From a virus: DNA of 24,526 bases. Numbering within the stretch: position 1 is the stretch's first letter; the number at the start of each line of letters is the position of its first letter. Positions 6,138 to 23,014 of the stretch are shown here, one piece after another. The translations under genes and the position numbers were made by a program. The stretch covers positions 1 to 24,526 of the IMG/VR virus record IMGVR_UViG_3300038701_001257; one strand, written 5' to 3'. Under the pieces are notes generated by a model. The model had not been told where the DNA came from. It did not search any database and was given only the letters and a program-made list of their open reading frames with translations.

Positions 6138-6662
6138 ATGACAGTATCAGCAAATGGTCTTCGCAGCGGGACACCTGTTAGCGATGATATGTATGTAACC
6201 GTTCATGCCTCCGGTGTGGGGTTGGAAGTGAACCCCGGCGATTGGGTGAGCTTTAGCGGGCAGTATGGCATTGCCACACATGATGGTGTTGCGTACTTCA
6301 AAGCGTCCGGTGTGGGGGTTGCGTTGGATCGTAATCCGGCATACGACTGGGCGGGCAATCAAGTGGTTAATAGTGCGCTACTGGTGGCAACCCGTGGCAT
6401 CTTCCAAGTATCGGCTAACTTTAGTGGTGTGCCTAATCTAGGGGTGCTGGCGTTCCCTGATATGACAGGTAGCGCGGTGAATGCGCCGAGTGGTGTAACT
6501 GGTTTGGGTGCTATCTGGAATACGGGTGTGCCTGTGAGTGTTTCGGGCGCAACTGCCGCAGCCCCTGTTAAAGGTGTTGCACAAGTGATCGGATCGAATG
6601 GACCTTACCCAACCGGGCAATTGTCTATTCGTGTATTCCCGCGCAATGCGGATTATTACTAG
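6138..6662 (+). CDS. Putative capsid decoration or head-stabilising protein
   Basis: A 174-residue, Gly/Val/Ser-rich, beta-type protein with few charges. Two similar segments, ASGVGLEVNPGDWVSFSG and ASGVGVALDRNPAYDW, suggest an internal duplication. It lies between the protease-scaffold and the major capsid protein, where decoration proteins of the lambda gpD type or small head proteins usually are. No signature residue allows a family call, so the function is inferred from position, size and composition. AAAGG upstream of ATG 6138 serves as the ribosome binding site. The stop TAG at 6660-6662 overlaps the ribosome binding site of the capsid gene. Confidence 0.6.
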   Translation: MTVSANGLRSGTPVSDDMYVTVHASGVGLEVNPGDWVSFSGQYGIATHDGVAYFKASGVGVALDRNPAYDWAGNQVVNSALLVATRGIFQVSANFSGVPNLGVLAFPDMTGSAVNAPSGVTGLGAIWNTGVPVSVSGATAAAPVKGVAQVIGSNGPYPTGQLSIRVFPRNADYY

Positions 6663-6672
6663 GGGGTGTGTG

Positions 6673-7767
6673 ATGACAGTAGATAAAGCACAAATCATCA
6701 ATATTCTTGATGCTGAGCGTGGTGTTTTCACTGAGGAAACAATACAGGGTGAATCCCTCAACGGTCTGCAAGAAAATATGATCCCTTACCCACGTGATGC
6801 GCGCGGGCGGATGACAATCGACCATGAGCGACTGATGGAAGCTGCCACAACGGCAAAATTCCCTGATTTGCTGCGTATGGGTGTGCGTTTCGATGTATTT
6901 AATAGCTACAACGAAACCCCGGTGACTTATCCGTTATTTACACGGGATGTTCCCAGCACGAAACAAAAAGAAGAATACTTGAAAGATGCTGCGCTGGGAA
7001 TTGCACCGATTGTCGCTGAAGGTCAGCCCTATCCAGAAGTTGAGATGGAGCTTAATGACGGTGTAGAAGTCCCCAACCACAAACGCGGTTATATCATTCC
7101 GGTAACGGAAGAAATGCAACGGTTTGACCAGTTGGGCAAAGTACGTCAGTTATCTGAGAGCATCGGGCGATCCCTACGATTGACCGAAGAACTTGCCGTG
7201 ATGGACGTATTGACCACTACAGGGAACTACACCCGCAATAGCTCAACAGGTGACAATGACGAGGGTGCGAATACACAAACCCTAGCCTTCAGTGCAACCA
7301 GCTTGATTACAGCGTTTAACGTACTGTCTACGATGAAAGACCGTAAGACAGGAGTTAAGTTGGGTGTGATGCCGAATACGTTGATTATTGCACCTAAGCT
7401 CAAATGGGCAGCGGTACAGTTGATCCTGAGCCGTGAATTGCAGCGTGTCGGACAGGGTGCGGATAACGCGCAAAATGTCTATGGCGGAGGCACTAATAAC
7501 CCGTTCTTCAATATGGTTGACCAGATCATTGTCAGCCCTCATCTAGGGGATTCGTATCAATGGTCATTGATGGAGCGTAATCGTGCGATTTACTTCCAAC
7601 GGGTTGACCCGGTAGATGTACAGATTGCTGACCGTAGCATGATGAATGAGAGTTACATCACCCGTGATGTGATCCGGTATCGTGGGCGTACATGGTTTGG
7701 CGTGGGAATGGTCGATGATCGTTTCGCATTTTATTCCGATACCACAAGCGCACCTGAAATCAGTTAA
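6673..7767 (+). CDS. Major capsid protein (HK97-like fold predicted)
   Basis: A 364-residue protein with the layout of a large HK97-fold coat protein: a short N-terminal arm, an E-loop-like region around EGQPYPEVEMELNDGVEVPNHKRGYIIPVTEEM, a central helix region (LSESIGRSLRLTEELAVMDVLTTTG), and a C-terminal beta region ending VIRYRGRTWFGVGMVDDRFAFYS. It sits downstream of the protease-scaffold, as expected. The frame extends upstream to 6598, but ATG 6673 is chosen because AGGGGG at 6661-6666 is its ribosome binding site and the extension would overlap the preceding gene. A terminator hairpin follows the stop. Confidence 0.9.
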   Translation: MTVDKAQIINILDAERGVFTEETIQGESLNGLQENMIPYPRDARGRMTIDHERLMEAATTAKFPDLLRMGVRFDVFNSYNETPVTYPLFTRDVPSTKQKEEYLKDAALGIAPIVAEGQPYPEVEMELNDGVEVPNHKRGYIIPVTEEMQRFDQLGKVRQLSESIGRSLRLTEELAVMDVLTTTGNYTRNSSTGDNDEGANTQTLAFSATSLITAFNVLSTMKDRKTGVKLGVMPNTLIIAPKLKWAAVQLILSRELQRVGQGADNAQNVYGGGTNNPFFNMVDQIIVSPHLGDSYQWSLMERNRAIYFQRVDPVDVQIADRSMMNESYITRDVIRYRGRTWFGVGMVDDRFAFYSDTTSAPEIS

Positions 7768-7808: not shown

Positions 7809-8273
7809 ATGGAAAATAAACAAGTAGATACGAAAGCCACGTTAGAATGGCTTGATGATGTTTGTTCTCAAGCATTAACGGAAGCCCGTCAAGGGGATAC
7901 CGCATTGGCAAATCGACTGGGGCAGCATCCGGCGTTAGCGCATTACTTTAATAATGTGCATACCACCAAGTCAATCCGTCCTGATACATGGACACAGATG
8001 TATAACCCGTATTTGCGTGAGGCGGATCGTTTGCGCCAACTGGCAGAGGCGGAAAGCCAACATGTGGAGACACAAGAACGGGTCAATACCCTTGAAGCTA
8101 AGCTGGATAAACTAACCAGCATGGTGGAATCGTTCATCGAAAGTCAGGAAACTCAAGAGCCTGTTGAAGAAGAACCCGCAAAGAAACCCCGTAAATCATC
8201 CAAGAAACCTGTTGATGTTGAAACAGAAGCGGATGAAACACCGGAAGATTCTGAGGGTGAAAGCGAAGACTAA
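7809..8273 (+). CDS. Acidic coiled-coil protein after the capsid gene
   Basis: A 154-residue protein of unknown function. Residues about 10-75 are helical and globular (WLDDVCSQALTEARQ...HPALAHYF). Residues 75-115 form a coiled coil (LREADRLRQLAEAES...VNTLEAKLDKLTSMVESF). The last 40 residues are a charged low-complexity tail of Lys then Glu/Asp (KKPRKSSKKPVDVE...EDSEGESED). GAGGG precedes ATG 7809 and the stop overlaps the next start by one base (TAATG). Proteins at this place can be head-tail joining or scaffold-like accessory factors, but no family is recognised. Confidence 0.7.
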   Translation: MENKQVDTKATLEWLDDVCSQALTEARQGDTALANRLGQHPALAHYFNNVHTTKSIRPDTWTQMYNPYLREADRLRQLAEAESQHVETQERVNTLEAKLDKLTSMVESFIESQETQEPVEEEPAKKPRKSSKKPVDVETEADETPEDSEGESED

Positions 8274-8776
8274 TGTTGACGACTGCTCAACAAGTCCGGT
8301 TGCGGATTCAAGATCAGCCGAAGTTAGCAAGAGACACATATACTGCCGATGGTGCAGCGACAGGTTTTAGCCTCCCCCACCGGAATATCACAAGTGCATC
8401 TGCATATGTAATGAACGCGGGGGCATGGTCGGCAACAGGGGCGATGTTTAGTGTGTCGGGTGAAGTGGCGTTTGCGGATGCGATTTCGGCACAGAGTGCG
8501 TTCCAAGTGGCGTACACCTATAGTGTGTTTTCCGATGAAGAAATCGCGGATTTTGTGACGGCAGGGGGTGGTATCCCCGGTGCGCGTCTGGAGGCTGTTC
8601 AAGCGTTGATGTTTGACGGATTGAAACGGTCGCGGTGGATGGCAGCGGATGGTACACAGTTTGATGATACGCAGGCTATGAGCCTTTTGAATCGTATGTA
8701 TGACCAGTTTTCCAAAGAAGCTGAGAATGATGCGCTGTTGGGTGGTGGATTGATCTCGTGGGCAGGTAATCAATGA
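8273..8776 (+). CDS. Putative head-tail connector (adaptor)
   Basis: A 167-residue protein placed where gp6/gp15-type connectors that attach under the portal are normally encoded. The N-terminal 85 residues look beta-rich with small residues (TADGAATGFSLPHRNITSASAYV). The C-terminal half is helical (DEEIADFVTAGGG...ARLEAVQALMFDGLKRSRW) and resembles the helix bundle of connector proteins. The beta insertion at the N-terminus makes it longer than the simplest connectors of about 100 residues. It overlaps both neighbours by a few bases (TAATG at its start and ATGA at its end), indicating a coupled cluster. Confidence 0.62.
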   Translation: MLTTAQQVRLRIQDQPKLARDTYTADGAATGFSLPHRNITSASAYVMNAGAWSATGAMFSVSGEVAFADAISAQSAFQVAYTYSVFSDEEIADFVTAGGGIPGARLEAVQALMFDGLKRSRWMAADGTQFDDTQAMSLLNRMYDQFSKEAENDALLGGGLISWAGNQ

Positions 8777-9144
8777 GTTATCGTGGACCACAATTTGACC
8801 GAATGGCACAACAGGCACAAGAGATTCGGCAGTATGCCGGACATACGGTAACATGGAAGCAATATGTCTCGGCTGTGACGGCTAATGCGGTGCTGGGGCT
8901 AGGTGATACATTGTATTATCGTGAGCAACCGATTACCGCCGTGATGTCATATCAAACGAATATGGAGCATCAAGCGGGGGTCGGGCAGATTGCTCGTGAG
9001 GTATTGTATGCAATGACCCCGTTTGAGATTGGAAGCCGTGATGAACTGGTGTGGCAGGGTGTGACATATCGTGTAGAAAGCGATAGCCAACCGTCACGGG
9101 TCGGAAGTCAATGGAAGTTCCGTTTGGAGCGGGGAGATAGCTAA
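8773..9144 (+). CDS. Putative head-closure (stopper) protein
   Basis: A 123-residue protein with a beta-barrel-like pattern: strands around HTVTWKQYVS, PITAVMSYQ, GDTLYYREQ and RDELVWQGVTYRVESDSQPSRVGSQWKFRLERG. The ending 'D.l.w.g..YrV.s....' is typical of gp16/HK97 gp7-type head-tail joining proteins, which plug the connector after DNA packaging. The N-terminal helix is short (QFDRMAQQAQEIRQYAG). Start ATG 8773 overlaps the upstream stop as ATGA, and its own stop overlaps the next ATG by one base. Confidence 0.65.
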   Translation: MSYRGPQFDRMAQQAQEIRQYAGHTVTWKQYVSAVTANAVLGLGDTLYYREQPITAVMSYQTNMEHQAGVGQIAREVLYAMTPFEIGSRDELVWQGVTYRVESDSQPSRVGSQWKFRLERGDS

Positions 9145-9548
9145 TGGGTACAGCGACTATTCATGCAGGTGGTGATTTGTTCCGCAACTTCCATCAGGCT
9201 GAAAAACGTCAGGTGCAAGTCGATTGGGCGGGACGCTTAATCGGCACAGAAGAACCAAATGGATTTACATGGTATGTCCCATCGGGGTTGAGTGCAGTGG
9301 CATCGGCTACGGCATTCACCTATGGTTTTTTTAATAGTGCAACGGCAAGCGGCGCGAATACCGCAAGTGCATCGGCATCCGCCATGTCATCTGGAACGGT
9401 CTATAGTCAGGTGACATTGAGCGGGCAAGCGAATTTTGCGACGGGGATGGCATATCCTATTAGCGGATCGATCACCACAGATGGTGGTAATCTATATATA
9501 GAGGCGTTTCTCGTTTGGTCGTGGAATGGCTTGAATGTTGATGGATAA
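9144..9548 (+). CDS. Putative fiber-tail adaptor-like protein
   Basis: A 134-residue beta-rich protein. Its layout, VQVDWAGRLIGTE near residues 22-35, TWYVPSGLS, then GTVYSQVTLSGQANFATGMAYPISGSITT and an aromatic C-terminal strand, resembles small phage proteins with a DY.vDW...L.gDtI..s.W.vP plan that are often labelled fiber-tail adaptors. The middle is an Ala/Ser/Thr-rich stretch (about 65-85) with low complexity. It is the last gene before the sugar cassette, and its stop is immediately followed by the palindrome at 9550. Attachment of a head or neck fiber is an inference from the pattern and position. Confidence 0.5.
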   Translation: MGTATIHAGGDLFRNFHQAEKRQVQVDWAGRLIGTEEPNGFTWYVPSGLSAVASATAFTYGFFNSATASGANTASASASAMSSGTVYSQVTLSGQANFATGMAYPISGSITTDGGNLYIEAFLVWSWNGLNVDG

Positions 9549-9549
9549 A

Positions 9550-9563
9550 CGTAAATATTTACG
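9550..9563. repeat. Recurrent palindrome, copy 4 (perfect)
   Basis: CGTAAATATTTACG, a perfect 14-base palindrome, 1 base after the stop of the fiber-tail adaptor gene and 9 bases before the GT4 start. It marks the left edge of the sugar cassette. Confidence 0.82.
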
Positions 9564-9572
9564 GGGAATACT

Positions 9573-10889
9573 ATGCAAAAAATCTTGTTAATCTCGGATA
9601 GCGGTGTGCCAACCGGATATGGTCGAATAGCTGATAATGTGGCGATTCGTCTCACACAACGTGGATTCCATGTGGTGGCGGCTTCGTTTGCGTATGATGG
9701 GTTGTTGCCTGCCATGATGAATGGGCATCCCCTGCCGTATCATGTTGCGACATTGCAGTTAAAACGGGCGATGGGTAACTGGGGCGAGGATGTTATGAAG
9801 CTGGTGGGGGCCGTGCAACCGGATGTGATTATGGTGATACAAGATGCGCCGTACGCGGAACAGGTGCGACACTTGCCGATTGATTGGAGCCAGCATAAGT
9901 TTGTGGTGGTTACCCCTGTGGATGGTGTGCCGATTGCACCGCAATGGGTTGAGTTACTGAAGCAATCCGATGCAGCCCTGAGTATTTCCGAATTTGGGGT
10001 AAATGCGTACCGTCAAGCGGGTGTGCCGATTACATTATGCCGTCCGGGTGTGAATCTCAATACATTTTATCCCCTGCATCCCCTACAAAAAGCTGAATTG
10101 CGGGCTAAATTAGGTGTTCCACAGGATGCGTTTATCTTGGGGACGATGGCACAGAATCAAGGGCGTAAGGCAGTGCCTAAGATGTTAGAAGCCTTCTTTA
10201 AGTTTGCGACAGATAAACCGAATGCCCTGTATTTGCTGGATATGGATAAGGTCAGTGCGATGGGTTGGAATATCCCTGATGTGTGTAAACAACGGGGATG
10301 GGATGTAAAGCGTTTGATCTTCCGTGAGGATTGCGAACGTCACGGGATTACTGAATTGCGCGAACGGTATAACCTATTGGATGCCCATGCTGTGATTAGC
10401 CACCGTGAAGGGTACGGTATCCCGTTGCAAGAGGCGATGGCGTGTGGTGTGGTCAGCATGGCACTAGACTATTGTTCGGGATCGGAGATTGTCGGGCAGA
10501 GCCGTGGATTGCTAATTCAACCTATTGATTATGATAATCCCTCGACATGGGGCGGTGCGAATGATCTATTCCCGGATGTTGATGATATGGTGGGTAAATT
10601 AAATTTGATTTACGAACGTCCCCATTATCGGGAGTATTTAGCACACAACGGGATGGTATGGGCACGTCAGCAAACGTGGGATAATGCAACGGATGCTGTG
10701 TATCAGGCGTTATGTGGGTTGTATGCGCCGAAAGTTGAGCCGATTATGATGCCTCCCCCACCACCAACGATTGGCCCCGATCAACCACCCGCCCCTATTC
10801 CAGAGCCAAAAGAGCCAACCCCTGATAAGCCGAAAGCAACGATTATTCATAGCAACGGTGTGATAGAGACACCACAGGGAGCGGATTAA
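9573..10889 (+). CDS. GT4-like glycosyltransferase (GT-B fold)
   Basis: A 438-residue glycosyltransferase. The N-terminal Rossmann domain starts KILLISDSGVPTGYGRIADN with a Gly-rich acceptor loop. The C-terminal donor domain contains ILGTMAQNQGRKAVPKMLEAF at 188-209 and the retaining-enzyme E-x7-E motif EGYGIPLQE (E279, E287) followed by ACGVV, where nucleotide sugar binds. The last 45 residues are a Pro-rich linker (PPPPPTIGPDQPPAPIPEPKEPTP) that could tether another factor. It opens a four-gene cassette: the stop overlaps the GT2 gene by one base. The sugar and acceptor cannot be read from sequence. GGGGA precedes the ATG, directly after the palindrome. Confidence 0.9.
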   Translation: MQKILLISDSGVPTGYGRIADNVAIRLTQRGFHVVAASFAYDGLLPAMMNGHPLPYHVATLQLKRAMGNWGEDVMKLVGAVQPDVIMVIQDAPYAEQVRHLPIDWSQHKFVVVTPVDGVPIAPQWVELLKQSDAALSISEFGVNAYRQAGVPITLCRPGVNLNTFYPLHPLQKAELRAKLGVPQDAFILGTMAQNQGRKAVPKMLEAFFKFATDKPNALYLLDMDKVSAMGWNIPDVCKQRGWDVKRLIFREDCERHGITELRERYNLLDAHAVISHREGYGIPLQEAMACGVVSMALDYCSGSEIVGQSRGLLIQPIDYDNPSTWGGANDLFPDVDDMVGKLNLIYERPHYREYLAHNGMVWARQQTWDNATDAVYQALCGLYAPKVEPIMMPPPPPTIGPDQPPAPIPEPKEPTPDKPKATIIHSNGVIETPQGAD

Positions 10890-11665
10890 TGGCGACCTTA
10901 TCGGTAGTGATCCCTGCTTATAATGATCCTCTTTCGGTATTGAGAGCGTTAAATAGTTTGCAGGGTACGGCAGATGGTGAGCATGAGTATATTGTGCAGG
11001 ATGATTATGTCTTAAATCCGATTGGGATTGAGGCAGTGATACCGCCATGTGCTGCGAGTGTCCGGCGGAATGCAAAGAACCTCGGTTTTGGGGGGAATTG
11101 TAATGCAGGGGCAGCGCGGGCAAATGGTGACATCCTGTTGTTTTTTAATCAGGATTGTTATGCGGTGCCGGAGTTGTCTAAAGGCTGGGATACGGAATTG
11201 CTCAAGGTGTTTGATAATCCACTGGTGGGGGTGGCAGGGGTTAAGTTACTGTTTCCCACAGGTGCGATTCAACATGCGGGTATTTGGTTTGATGGTCACT
11301 GTCAACCATTCCATCGGTATCTAGGTTATCAGGATCGGGATTATGCACCCGCGAATCAACCGGAGGAAGTGCCAGCGGTGACAGGTGCGGCGTTGGCTGT
11401 GCGGGCGGATGTGTTCCATCAGTTGGGTGGTTTTGATGCTGAGGCGTACCCCGGTGGATATTTTGAAGATATTGACCTGTGCGGGCGGGTAGCACAAGCG
11501 GGTTATGCGATCTGGTATCAGCCGACGATAACATTTATCCATGTGGTAGGGACATCGGGGGGTAATCCGAATTTTGCACGGAATGCACAGATGTTCAAAG
11601 CGCGATGGGTCGATGCGGGGAAGATTGAACCTGATGTGCGGGCAGTGAAGGAACGGTGGTGGTAG
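10889..11665 (+). CDS. GT2-like glycosyltransferase (GT-A fold)
   Basis: A 258-residue family 2 transferase resembling rhamnosyl/GalNAc transferases. It begins with the canonical LSVVIPAYNDP, has RNAKNLGFGGNCNAGAARANGD at 60-81, a metal-site equivalent FFNQDC at 85-90 in place of a plain DXD, VTGAALAVRADVFHQLGGFD at 164-183, and FEDIDLCGR at 192-200 as the acceptor/base region. No membrane helix is present, so it is probably cytosolic. The start overlaps the GT4 stop (TAATG) and the stop abuts the next ATG with no gap, so the three transferase genes are translationally coupled. Donor and acceptor are unknown. Confidence 0.9.
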   Translation: MATLSVVIPAYNDPLSVLRALNSLQGTADGEHEYIVQDDYVLNPIGIEAVIPPCAASVRRNAKNLGFGGNCNAGAARANGDILLFFNQDCYAVPELSKGWDTELLKVFDNPLVGVAGVKLLFPTGAIQHAGIWFDGHCQPFHRYLGYQDRDYAPANQPEEVPAVTGAALAVRADVFHQLGGFDAEAYPGGYFEDIDLCGRVAQAGYAIWYQPTITFIHVVGTSGGNPNFARNAQMFKARWVDAGKIEPDVRAVKERWW

Positions 11666-12553
11666 ATGAAAATATTACTTAGTTACATCCATTATCCGGT
11701 GTGTAGTGGACGATATGTCAAGGATGCGTTGATGCGTCTGGGGCATGATGTGAAGTCGTGCGGGTGGTCAACGGAGAATACCATCTGGGGGATGCAGGTT
11801 CATCCGAAGCATAATCATTACCCTGATGCGCCGATTGATGGTGCGATTGAGGGATGGACACCTGACCTAGTGATATTGATGGATAGCGCGTATACCTTCC
11901 ATCATCCGGTGTATGGAGATGTTCCGCATGTGGTGTATGGTGTGGATAATCACGTCCGAGATTACCGCCAAGATGGGATGACACATTATTTTGTAGCGCA
12001 CAAGTCATCCAGCCTGATGGATATGAAAGCCGATGATGTGACATGGTTGCCGTGCGGATTTGACCCTGAGGCGTTCACCCCGTCTGATATTGAGATGGAA
12101 TCACGGGATTATGATGTGACGTTGGTCGGCGTGTTGTATGAAAGCCGGGTGCGGATGTTAGAGGCAATGGCACAAGCTGATCTTGATGTATTTGCAGGAA
12201 CGGGTTTGTTGTATGAGGATTATGCACAGGCGTACCAGAATAGCCGATTTGCATTGAATGTATCGGTAAAGGGCGATTTGAATCAGCGTATTTTTGAAAC
12301 GGCTGCGCTGGGTTGTGTGGTGTTGACACAGCCGATACCCGATCTGGAGTTGATTGATTACCCGAAAGACCAGATTTTGACGTATAAGACGTGCAAGGGT
12401 GCGATAGAGATGGTGCGTAAGTTTAGCCCTACCCCGCTGGATTTGGCATGGTTGCAAGCGCATACGTGGGATGCCCGTATACAGGTTGTGATAGACTGGT
12501 ATCAAACAACGTGTGAGAAGAAAGCGACAAAACGTGCCAAAACCGATGCTTAA
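11666..12553 (+). CDS. CgeB-like glycosyltransferase
   Basis: A 295-residue GT-B type protein of the CgeB/Glyco_trans_1_2 kind. The N-terminal domain starts MKILLSYIHYPVCSGRYVKDAL and carries PDLVILMDSAYTFHHPVYGDVPHVVYGVDNH. The C-terminal domain has DVTLVGVLYESR, FAGTG, and the hallmark LNQRIFETAALGCVVLTQPIPDL at about 205-227. It lacks the exact E-x7-E of GT4 but has the E..A.G motif of this family. The start is adjacent to the GT2 stop and the 3' end overlaps the methyltransferase. It probably acts with its neighbours on one glycan. The basic C-terminal tail (KKATKRAKTDA) is unexplained. Confidence 0.82.
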   Translation: MKILLSYIHYPVCSGRYVKDALMRLGHDVKSCGWSTENTIWGMQVHPKHNHYPDAPIDGAIEGWTPDLVILMDSAYTFHHPVYGDVPHVVYGVDNHVRDYRQDGMTHYFVAHKSSSLMDMKADDVTWLPCGFDPEAFTPSDIEMESRDYDVTLVGVLYESRVRMLEAMAQADLDVFAGTGLLYEDYAQAYQNSRFALNVSVKGDLNQRIFETAALGCVVLTQPIPDLELIDYPKDQILTYKTCKGAIEMVRKFSPTPLDLAWLQAHTWDARIQVVIDWYQTTCEKKATKRAKTDA

Positions 12554-13196
12554 TCTGGGATGTGGAAAGATTATCCTACCGTGTGAGAAACCGGATCATC
12601 ATCAGTTGGTTGAAGATGAGATTTACAGCTATCCGCATTGGGTCAATATCGATAAGAATGATGCGGAGGGTGTTGATCGGTGTATGAACTTGTTCCAGTA
12701 TCCGTGGGATTTGGAAGATAATGCGTATAGTGGTGCATTGCTTAGCCATGTGTGTGAGCATATCCCACATGAGATACAGACATCCTTTGAAAGGACAAGT
12801 AATTGGGATCGGTGTCGAGAACTTCTTGATATGCAAGATGGTTGGTTTGCATTTTTCTCAGAGTTATATCGGGTGTTGGAAGATGGGGCGCGGGTGCATA
12901 TTATTAGCCCGTACCGGGGAACGGATGGTGCAGTGAGTGATCCGACACATACCCGACAGTTGAATGAGTATTCGTTCCAGCATAGCATGGAGCCGAACTC
13001 AGATGCCCCGTTTGATTATAATCGTAAGTTGCATTTTCGGGTGGATGACCATACACCGATGCGGGCAATGCCAGACTTCTGGGGAGAGCCTTATTTTGTG
13101 GATGGTGTGCCAACGGATGCTTTCTTCCATGCGGTGCGTACCCGATATAATGTCGTGCTTGATTTTTATGTGCGAATGACGGTGGTAAAAGACTAA
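12546..13196 (+). CDS. Class I SAM-dependent methyltransferase
   Basis: A 216-residue methyltransferase. It opens with motif I MLNLGCGK, which binds S-adenosylmethionine, followed by VNIDKNDAEGVDRCMNLFQ as motif II (acidic residue after beta-2), SHVCEHIPH as the motif preceding the active site, and FSELYRVLEDGARVHIISPY as the post-motif helix and strand. This layout matches small methyltransferases that accompany glycosyltransferases and often act on sugars. ATG 12546 is preferred because it begins exactly at motif I; GTG 12513 and GTG 12534 are in-frame alternatives. It overlaps the previous gene by 8 bases. Methylation of the sugar built by the three upstream enzymes is an inference. Confidence 0.84.
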   Translation: MLNLGCGKIILPCEKPDHHQLVEDEIYSYPHWVNIDKNDAEGVDRCMNLFQYPWDLEDNAYSGALLSHVCEHIPHEIQTSFERTSNWDRCRELLDMQDGWFAFFSELYRVLEDGARVHIISPYRGTDGAVSDPTHTRQLNEYSFQHSMEPNSDAPFDYNRKLHFRVDDHTPMRAMPDFWGEPYFVDGVPTDAFFHAVRTRYNVVLDFYVRMTVVKD

Positions 13197-13197
13197 C

Positions 13198-13209
13198 CGT
13201 AACCTTACG
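13198..13209. repeat. CGTAA/TTACG inverted repeat after the sugar cassette
   Basis: CGTAACCTTACG directly follows the methyltransferase stop. Its arms are those of the recurrent palindrome with a CC centre. It may be a diverged copy marking the right edge of the cassette, or chance. Confidence 0.45.
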
Positions 13210-13224
13210 ATAAGCATGTATATG

Positions 13225-13250
13225 AGGCTCCCTAACGGGGGCTTTTTTAT
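13225..13250 (+). terminator. Rho-independent terminator closing the sugar cassette
   Basis: Stem AGGCTCCC/GGGGGCTT with a TAAC loop (6 strong pairs plus two weaker), followed by a run of six T. The U-tract runs into TATTTGGAG, the ribosome binding site of the next gene, leaving no space for a new promoter. Confidence 0.85.
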
Positions 13251-13262
13251 TTGGAGATGCCG

Positions 13263-13643
13263 ATGTTAGATTTTAATTTTGATTCGACCGGATGGGAACA
13301 GCTTGAGAATGAGGCGAAAGGCACACCGGATAAGGTCAATAAGGCAGTGAAGTTTGTGCTGCGAAAAACAGCCTTTTGGGGTAAGCGAAAGGTTCAGCGT
13401 CAAATGCCTGTGGATTCGGGTGCGGCGCGGGCTAGCTGGGGTGCGGAAGGTGAAGCGGGCATCTGGTACTTTATGAATAATGACACAACACATGTGCAAG
13501 GGTCGAGATTACCTTATATCCAGCGATTGAATGAGGGGCATTCTAAACAGGCACCGGCGGGCTTTATTGATGTGATCGAAGAACAGATGATTGAGTTGTT
13601 TATCGATGATATGGCACGTGAGATGTTGGAGATATTAGGGTGA
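13263..13643 (+). CDS. HK97 gp10-like neck/tail-completion protein
   Basis: A 126-residue protein of the HK97 gp10 type, which acts at the head-tail joint. The typical pattern is present: FDSTGWEQLENEAKGTPDKVNKAVKFVLRKTAFWGKRKVQRQMPVDSGAARASW, in which the K...A...G..VDSGALR-like element (MPVDSGAARASW) is the family hallmark, followed by a YIQRLNEGHSKQAPAGFID strand-loop region. ATG 13263 is chosen because TTGGAG at 13251-13256 is 6 bases upstream; the ATG at 13257 is too close. The ribosome binding site abuts the terminator of the preceding cassette. The stop overlaps the next GTG start as GTGA. Confidence 0.82.
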   Translation: MLDFNFDSTGWEQLENEAKGTPDKVNKAVKFVLRKTAFWGKRKVQRQMPVDSGAARASWGAEGEAGIWYFMNNDTTHVQGSRLPYIQRLNEGHSKQAPAGFIDVIEEQMIELFIDDMAREMLEILG

Positions 13644-22078: not shown

Positions 22079-23014
22079 TTATCCGTCACGCTTGACGATT
22101 TTTCGGGCTTTCCCAATTGAATCTTTCCCCGCATCGGGTATCAAATCAGCCAGTTGCCGCAGCGATAAATCAATCTTATCGGGATTATCTTTCAACCATT
22201 GGACGGCATTGTCTACCGCTGTCGATGATTTAGCGTAGCCAGCCCCAGACATCTGTCTATTGTCTGTCTGATTAGACGTAGACGCAGACAGACGCGGGGC
22301 ATTGACTGCGATGCCTGGCTGATTGTCTGTCGGTTTAGACACTTTAATCGACACGCCGTAATCTTTTTTCTTGCTATTCCACGATGAATCTAGTGATGTG
22401 TTCCACTTCTCAAGGGCTTCAATATAATCTTCTTCAAGTATGGCGTTTTGCCGTTGCATGTCGATTACACGGATCGCCAGAATTTCACCAGCGATGTAAG
22501 CATTTGCGGGAGCAATACAAGCGACCCACAAAAAGATCAGGATTCCTACTATTTCCCACAATCCACCCGACACTGTACCGCTTGTATTTAATACACCATA
22601 TATATTCATGGCAAACATTGCACCGACGACAATGAATAACCCAATGCGGACAGGCTTTTTGATACTAGGTGTTTCATCAATAGTAGTGTTCTCAATAATA
22701 TCTGTATACGCCAAATAGACGGCAGTCACTTCAACCATGATGAAGGTAATAAACGCTAAAAACCCTGCAAGAACGGGATTGATTTGATCCGGGTACGCTT
22801 TGAACACAACTAACAATGTATGTGAAGCCGAAACCAATGCACTGGCAATCAAAATAATGGTTACGACAACGTGATGCCATGAAATTAACATCTGTGCTTG
22901 GGGTTTTTGTGGTGGTGGATTGCGGAGACTGTATTTTTTAACATGTGCATTGTACGCAGATTCATATACTTGAGCGTGTTGAATAAACTTTTCAGTTTCT
23001 GGTTGCATCTCCAT
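22079..23014 (-). CDS. Four-helix membrane protein with HTH-like C-terminal domain
   Basis: A 311-residue protein. Four transmembrane segments are predicted at about 47-71, 81-104, 122-141 and 153-180, preceded by a 45-residue N-terminal cytoplasmic part. Residues 185-265 are a helical then Ser/Asn-rich linker. The C-terminus (266-308: NAVQWLKDNPDKIDLSLRQLADLIPDAGKDSIGKARKIVKR) resembles small winged-helix DNA-binding modules of the 'aL..LA..l..... .s..kArki' type found after linkers in phage regulators. A membrane-anchored transcription factor or signalling protein is possible. ATG 23014 has AGGA 10 bases upstream. No relative is recalled with confidence. Confidence 0.72.
   Translation of the reverse strand: MEMQPETEKFIQHAQVYESAYNAHVKKYSLRNPPPQKPQAQMLISWHHVVVTIILIASALVSASHTLLVVFKAYPDQINPVLAGFLAFITFIMVEVTAVYLAYTDIIENTTIDETPSIKKPVRIGLFIVVGAMFAMNIYGVLNTSGTVSGGLWEIVGILIFLWVACIAPANAYIAGEILAIRVIDMQRQNAILEEDYIEALEKWNTSLDSSWNSKKKDYGVSIKVSKPTDNQPGIAVNAPRLSASTSNQTDNRQMSGAGYAKSSTAVDNAVQWLKDNPDKIDLSLRQLADLIPDAGKDSIGKARKIVKRDG

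Follow-up and report, generated by a model that had tools for sequence, protein, structure and literature searches.

Glycosylation of virion proteins by phage-encoded enzymes is exemplified by the Cluster O mycobacteriophages, such as Corndog, in which genes for an O-methyltransferase, two glycosyltransferases and a putative N-acetylglucosaminyltransferase are located between the portal and protease genes (PMC4351075). The enzymes of this cassette are made in infected cells and are not part of the virions (PMC4351075). Two papers that cite Freeman 2023 state that Corndog-type enzymes modify the capsid and the tail tube (PMC11600133; PMC12619734), and the second places the glycans at the C-termini of these proteins (PMC12619734); the modification of the capsid and tail tube by the Cluster O enzymes is also described in a later paper (PMC12363180). 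Virion glycosylation has been reported for the Cluster F phage Che8 as well (PMC12363180). The three tandem glycosylation genes of Che8 (gp108, 109 and 110) encode proteins that are 47-56% identical to gp33, gp35 and gp36 of the Corndog relative Firecracker.

Here we analyze a window of 24,526 bases, an IMG/VR fragment of a tailed phage that encodes small and large terminase subunits, portal, MuF-like, protease/scaffold, capsid, adaptor, Hc1, neck, tail and tape-measure proteins, the small genes being named from synteny. A cassette of four genes in the order GT4-GT2-CgeB-MT occupies positions 9573-13196 of the plus strand, between the head-closure and neck genes. The GT4 and GT2 open reading frames (ORFs) overlap by 1 base, the GT2 and CgeB ORFs abut, and the CgeB and MT ORFs overlap by 8-41 bases, depending on which of the three candidate starts of the methyltransferase (12513, 12534 or 12546) is chosen. 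The upstream border is formed by an Hc1-like head-closure protein (8773..9144, plus strand), for which the match to phrog_161 is weak (E 0.0027) and the position is kept in relatives. Between this gene and the GT4 gene lies a small Ser/Ala/Gly-rich ORF (9144..9548, plus strand) without a Pfam or PHROG family match and with counterparts only in the closest relatives (L002/L024 and L023/L052). The downstream border is a Neck1/HK97 gp10-like protein (13251..13643, plus strand; phrog_5, E 6e-13). A terminator-like hairpin, with a 9-pair stem followed by a T-rich tail, separates it from the methyltransferase gene (13224..13245, plus strand); this hairpin is not conserved, and in L002 the respective gap is just 5 bases. 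The initial annotation had named the four enzymes, described them as tightly coupled, and placed them within the virion structural operon, between head-closure and neck genes. The first two statements are borne out by the family matches and predicted folds given below and by the overlaps and abutment of the ORFs, and the third by the flanking Hc1-like and Neck1 matches.

The first gene (9573..10889, plus strand) encodes a 438 aa GT4-family glycosyltransferase of the GT-B type that matches PF00534 (E 5.7e-9) with 36.2 bits, above the curated cut-off of 26.4 bits, as well as phrog_2170 (E 9.5e-28). The residues R198-K199 and E279...E287, an E-x7-E type motif, are invariant across 13 homologues. 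The C-terminal tail of this protein, from about residue 391 to residue 438 (10743..10886, plus strand), is rich in proline, with 17 Pro among the last 60 aa, and had been proposed to tether partner proteins. In relatives, the protein either stops at the catalytic domain (L025, L040 and L050) or carries a Gly/Asp-rich or other tail, so a conserved tether role is unlikely, and the proposal does not hold for the lineage.

The second gene (10889..11665, plus strand) encodes a 258 aa GT2-family glycosyltransferase of the GT-A type, a candidate peptide-priming enzyme. It matches PF00535 (E 2.1e-13) with 51 bits, above the curated cut-off of 23.3 bits, and the motifs NQD at residues 87-89 (DXD-like) and ED.D at residues 193-196 (acceptor-side acidic) are invariant. 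The GT2 profile aligns with human-type polypeptide GalNAc-transferases over positions 7-246 of 262 (E 7e-10). The nearest NCBIfam model is that of the mycofactocin glycosyltransferase MftF (TIGR03965), an enzyme that glycosylates a peptide-derived cofactor; the score of 79.4 bits (E 2.5e-22) against an equivalog cut-off of 280 bits indicates a related protein that is not a member of this family. The likeness of the GT2 enzyme to both the GalNAc-transferases and MftF is, judging from these profiles, at the superfamily level. The proximity to MftF, together with the placement of phrog_2170 in the moron/host takeover class of PHROGs, could be taken to mean that the product of the cassette is a glycosylated host protein or a small molecule, serving counter-defence or metabolic takeover. 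We consider this improbable given the strict position of the genes in the virion operon and their co-divergence with the structural genes, described below, neither of which would be expected of an interchangeable takeover gene.

The third gene (11666..12553, plus strand) encodes a 295 aa CgeB-like glycosyltransferase of the GT-B type (PF13524, E 9.4e-13). Structure prediction had been proposed as a check of the enzyme assignments, and the AlphaFold model of this protein (pLDDT 87.7) indeed adopts a GT-B fold that resembles BshA, PimA and MshA over almost its entire length (Z 19-20), with BshA superimposed over 269 residues at Z 20.4 and rmsd 3.1 A. The same fold, at Z of about 18, is shared by T4 AGT and similar GT-B enzymes, which brings up the possibility that the cassette glycosylates the bases of the phage DNA and thereby evades restriction. 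This appears highly unlikely: BshA, PimA and many other GT4 enzymes are at least as near to the model as AGT, the genes lie among head-tail genes rather than replication genes, and no base-modifying synthase was found among ten proteins scanned from the other half of the genome of the closest relative.

The fourth gene (12513..13196, plus strand) encodes a predicted class I SAM-dependent methyltransferase of up to 227 aa. The window protein itself has no match in Pfam, PHROG or NCBIfam, and its profile has no sequence match among the sequences of solved structures; its identification follows from the predicted fold and from the family matches of its homologues. The predicted structure, of moderate confidence (pLDDT 76.7), is that of a class I SAM methyltransferase, in agreement with the expectation of the initial annotation (Foldseek best E 7.3e-6; best structural match 3l8d, Z 11.5 over 154 residues), and 7 of the 13 members of the alignment match Methyltransf_11 (PF08241). 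The motifs LNLGCG and EHIPH are conserved in the homologues. The substrate of this enzyme is presumably a sugar.

This set of genes had been called unusual for its site, which proved to be an overstatement, as Corndog (PMC4351075), S-CBS4 and phiPsal1 illustrate. Like the cassettes of Cluster O (Corndog, Firecracker and Dylan), that of the window combines three tandem transferases and one methyltransferase in a late structural operon; unlike them, it lies between the head-closure and neck genes rather than between portal and protease, and it belongs to a phage of an unrelated lineage with a host probably from a different phylum. The enzymes were compared through the Corndog relatives Firecracker and Dylan. 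In a 16-sequence set, the GT4, CgeB and methyltransferase profiles of the window gave no detectable match to the Che8 and Firecracker enzymes, whereas the GT2 profile gave weak, superfamily-level matches to Che8 gp109 (E 3.7e-6) and to Firecracker gp35 (E 2.4e-5), the latter annotated as a polypeptide GalNAc-transferase. A shared function would not require such homology. Che8, similarly, has three glycosylation genes in tandem; unlike those of the window, gp108-110 map to the right genome end, well away from the structural operon. The Pontimonas phage phiPsal1 and the Synechococcus phage S-CBS4 also carry GT4, GT2 and methyltransferase genes among structural genes, and their GT4 proteins are homologous to that of the window (26-27% identity; profile E 1e-27 to 4e-32). 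These clusters differ in gene order and insertion site and lack a CgeB gene, and their methyltransferases, 53% identical to each other, represent another family that is not matched by the methyltransferase profile of the window. In the Microcystis phage Mae-JY09, a GT4 homologue and three more genes are located between the capsid and head-tail adaptor genes, with an NAD-dependent epimerase where the window has CgeB and the methyltransferase. By gene content, putative clusters headed by a GT4 gene occur repeatedly among the structural genes of phages, as S-CBS4, phiPsal1 and Mae-JY09 show. On present evidence, the cassette of the window would resemble that of Cluster O in the way it works, with another enzyme set and another site.

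A search of relatives for the same cassette, proposed at the outset, gave a uniform picture. The first IMG/VR scan employed the CgeB pair as the query (an alignment of seven GT4 sequences proved too diverse for scanning) and yielded 13 loci, each of which carries the four cassette genes in identical order. Because a CgeB-based search finds only phages that bear the cassette, the scan was repeated with the adaptor (8273-8776) as a cassette-independent marker; a narrow scan with the terminase did not detect any relatives. Of the 31 IMG/VR records detected with the adaptor, 23 cover the region from Hc1 to neck, corresponding to about 18 distinct phages after removal of near-identical records, and the remainder are broken by contig ends. 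GT4, GT2, CgeB and the methyltransferase are present, in this order, in 23 of the 23 spanning records, and the close lineage yielded no member without the cassette; the records cut by contig ends that reach far enough beyond Hc1 each contain the expected cassette genes. Thus, the cassette, which had been described as inserted into the operon, is a fixed part of the lineage rather than a recent or random insertion. Variation within it includes the fusion of CgeB and the methyltransferase into a single 666-residue protein in L030 and the presence of two CgeB copies in L019/L049. In the nearest relative, the cassette proteins are 58-67% identical to those of the window, compared with 61-68% for portal, MuF and adaptor and 39% for the capsid protein.

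The evolution of the cassette parallels that of the virion genes. In the L009-L037 pair, the only one with a usable synonymous distance, GT4 and GT2, the two cassette genes covered by this estimate, have dN/dS values of 0.17 and 0.14, respectively, compared with 0.12 (capsid) and 0.18 (adaptor). The pairwise distances of the cassette genes correlate with one another (r 0.74-0.91) and with those of structural genes (r 0.39-0.77, the adaptor and tail-completion genes giving r 0.69-0.77), and none of the 2000 permutations reached any of the tested values. Given the correlation with the structural genes, the cassette is inherited together with the virion module. Purifying selection, co-divergence with the structural genes and presence in 23 of 23 records rule out a recent moron. 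In several relatives, small unrelated ORFs have been gained or lost between the cassette genes, as might happen if the whole cassette were selfish or drifting cargo without a function for the phage. These ORFs interrupt the cassette in genomes in which all four enzymes are still present, none of the 23 records has lost an enzyme, the catalytic residues are kept and dN/dS of GT4 and GT2 is in the range 0.14-0.18, leaving the cargo explanation with hardly any plausibility.

The four enzymes of the window contain no transmembrane-like segments, the highest 19-residue hydropathy being 1.37, and so the cassette encodes neither a flippase nor a polytopic transferase. In this respect, it is unlike the Gtr-type serotype-conversion cluster, with its polytopic membrane proteins (flippase and bactoprenol transferase). 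This bears on the possibility that the enzymes alter the host surface, by acting on a cell-wall polymer, S-layer or glycolipid, and confer superinfection exclusion or mask a receptor. The same glycosyltransferase families also make surface polysaccharides, and the closest relative encodes a possible serine recombinase, so a lysogenic phase and hence modification of the host surface are conceivable. However, the absence of membrane-spanning segments, the fixed location in the late structural operon of about 18 divergent phages, which is unlike that of lysogeny genes, and the failure to detect a tyrosine integrase in nine records of 35-49 kb make this explanation rather unlikely.

Of the readings of the locus, the best supported is that a virion protein carries a methylated glycan. 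The major capsid protein (6598..7767, plus strand; PF25209, E 4.1e-21; true start probably near 6673) ends in a Ser/Thr-rich tail, SDTTSAPEIS (7732..7764, plus strand), that is a candidate glycan acceptor. In 24 homologues, the last 11 residues contain 52% Ser/Thr, compared with 15% for the whole protein, and the Ser/Thr content of the tail has a median rank of 1.2% among the 11-mers of the same protein; the consensus in the lineage is a Ser/Thr/Pro segment, SSSTTAPTVS, typically YSSSTTAPTVS. No comparable Ser/Thr-rich end was found in any of the other virion proteins tested. Two remote Anaerolineae phage-like loci with a distant adaptor lack the cassette, and the protein in the capsid position, assigned by position rather than by established sequence homology, lacks the Ser/Thr tail in both (n=2). 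The tail was noticed post hoc, and it could instead be a structural arm. Taken together, the composition of the tail, the GalNAc-transferase-like profile of GT2 and the cassette-less loci without the tail suggest glycosylation of the capsid C-terminus, which we tentatively regard as the most likely acceptor, at less than even confidence; the proteins encoded at 6138-6662 and 9144-9548 and the tail tube are possible alternatives.

With a virion protein as the acceptor, which we infer from the observations above, the cassette would probably constitute a phage-encoded, cytoplasmic, late glycosylation pathway that places a methyl-capped glycan on this protein during assembly. In the cytoplasm, GT2 would put the first sugar on a Ser/Thr residue of the acceptor; GT4 and CgeB would then extend it by at least one sugar from host nucleotide donors, and the methyltransferase would cap or decorate the short sugar chain. 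The CgeB-methyltransferase fusion in L030 suggests that these two enzymes act in consecutive steps. A more specific and considerably more speculative version is a core, never-lost glycosylation step common to the entire lineage, in which the GalNAc-transferase-like GT2 primes the conserved Ser/Thr/Pro tail of the capsid protein on every capsomer, in a mucin-like O-glycosylation, the two GT-B enzymes extend the glycan and the methyltransferase adds the cap.

The window DNA has no match among 50,697 phage records, and its capsid protein has none among named phages. Among genome contigs, matches with about 40% identity occur only in three metagenome-assembled genomes (MAGs) of Anaerolineae/Chloroflexi, and when 396 genomes of the class were searched with the adaptor, one strong and two weak matches resulted. 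These matches point to Anaerolineae as the likely hosts, and the phage lineage, which is uncultured, probably infects members of this class; this assignment rests on three MAGs, two of them represented by short, possibly mis-binned contigs. The usual phage arrangement is seen in two of the three MAGs (L066 and L067). The Anaerolineae MAG G001 contains full-length genes for portal, protease/scaffold, a 6138-like protein, capsid, adaptor, Hc1, a further phage ORF, GT4, GT2 and CgeB, all on one strand and in phage order, distributed over three contigs and set about 2-11 kb apart by ordinary bacterial genes, including those for a P450, ABC transporter parts, an aldo/keto reductase, an AlkZ-like protein and a histidine kinase. 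No matches to the terminase, the methyltransferase or the tail tube were found in this genome. The array could represent a dispersed virion module that has been domesticated, or something stranger.

If the proposed pathway is correct, glycosylation of phage particles arose in a lineage unrelated to the Cluster O phages, by means of a different set of enzymes. As this lineage is far from antibody-making hosts, the modification would then have a different role, for example in stability, in adsorption, or in protection from proteases or phages' decoys. That the cassette has stayed fixed at a single site through deep divergence would suggest that, in these phages, glycosylation is integral to virion assembly.

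The order of the four cassette enzymes, the GT4, GT2 and CgeB-like glycosyltransferases and the SAM methyltransferase, is constant in seven related phages (L010, L011, L012, L013, L015, L017 and L018), and small unrelated ORFs that vary from phage to phage are interposed among these genes within the span from Hc1 to the neck. In another cassette, CgeB and the methyltransferase are fused in a single 666-residue protein (L030:8370-10370); two further cassettes each carry two tandem CgeB paralogues (L019:7938-9645 and L049:12981-14688).

In the window, the gap separating the methyltransferase from the neck contains a terminator-like hairpin (13224-13245), and a gap of this kind is absent in the closest relative, G507. 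This relative encodes a LamG-like lectin protein, adjoining the terminase genes, and, judging from a weak sequence match, a putative serine recombinase that might indicate lysogeny (L128:2355-3848 and L127:3208-4077 for the recombinase and the lectin protein). Elsewhere in the window, the minus strand, opposite to the structural genes, encodes a protein of 311 residues (22079-23014) that contains several hydrophobic segments and matches no Pfam family.

CgeB-like gene pairs, with members about 4-5 kb apart, recur on bacterial contigs of Nitrospirae/Leptospirillum MAGs (L068-L077, L081, L083, L084 and L089).

The Anaerolineae MAG G001 (L110, L114, L115, L121 and L122; contigs C69, C72 and C82) contains ten intact genes of the window's phage lineage, namely portal, protease, a gene resembling the one at window 6138-6662, capsid, adaptor, Hc1, a small ORF, GT4, GT2 and CgeB; no terminase, methyltransferase or tail tube was detected in this MAG. 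All ten share one orientation and follow the phage order, at a spacing of about 2-11 kb, and the spacers consist of ordinary bacterial genes. This arrangement is an "exploded" virion operon within a bacterial genome.
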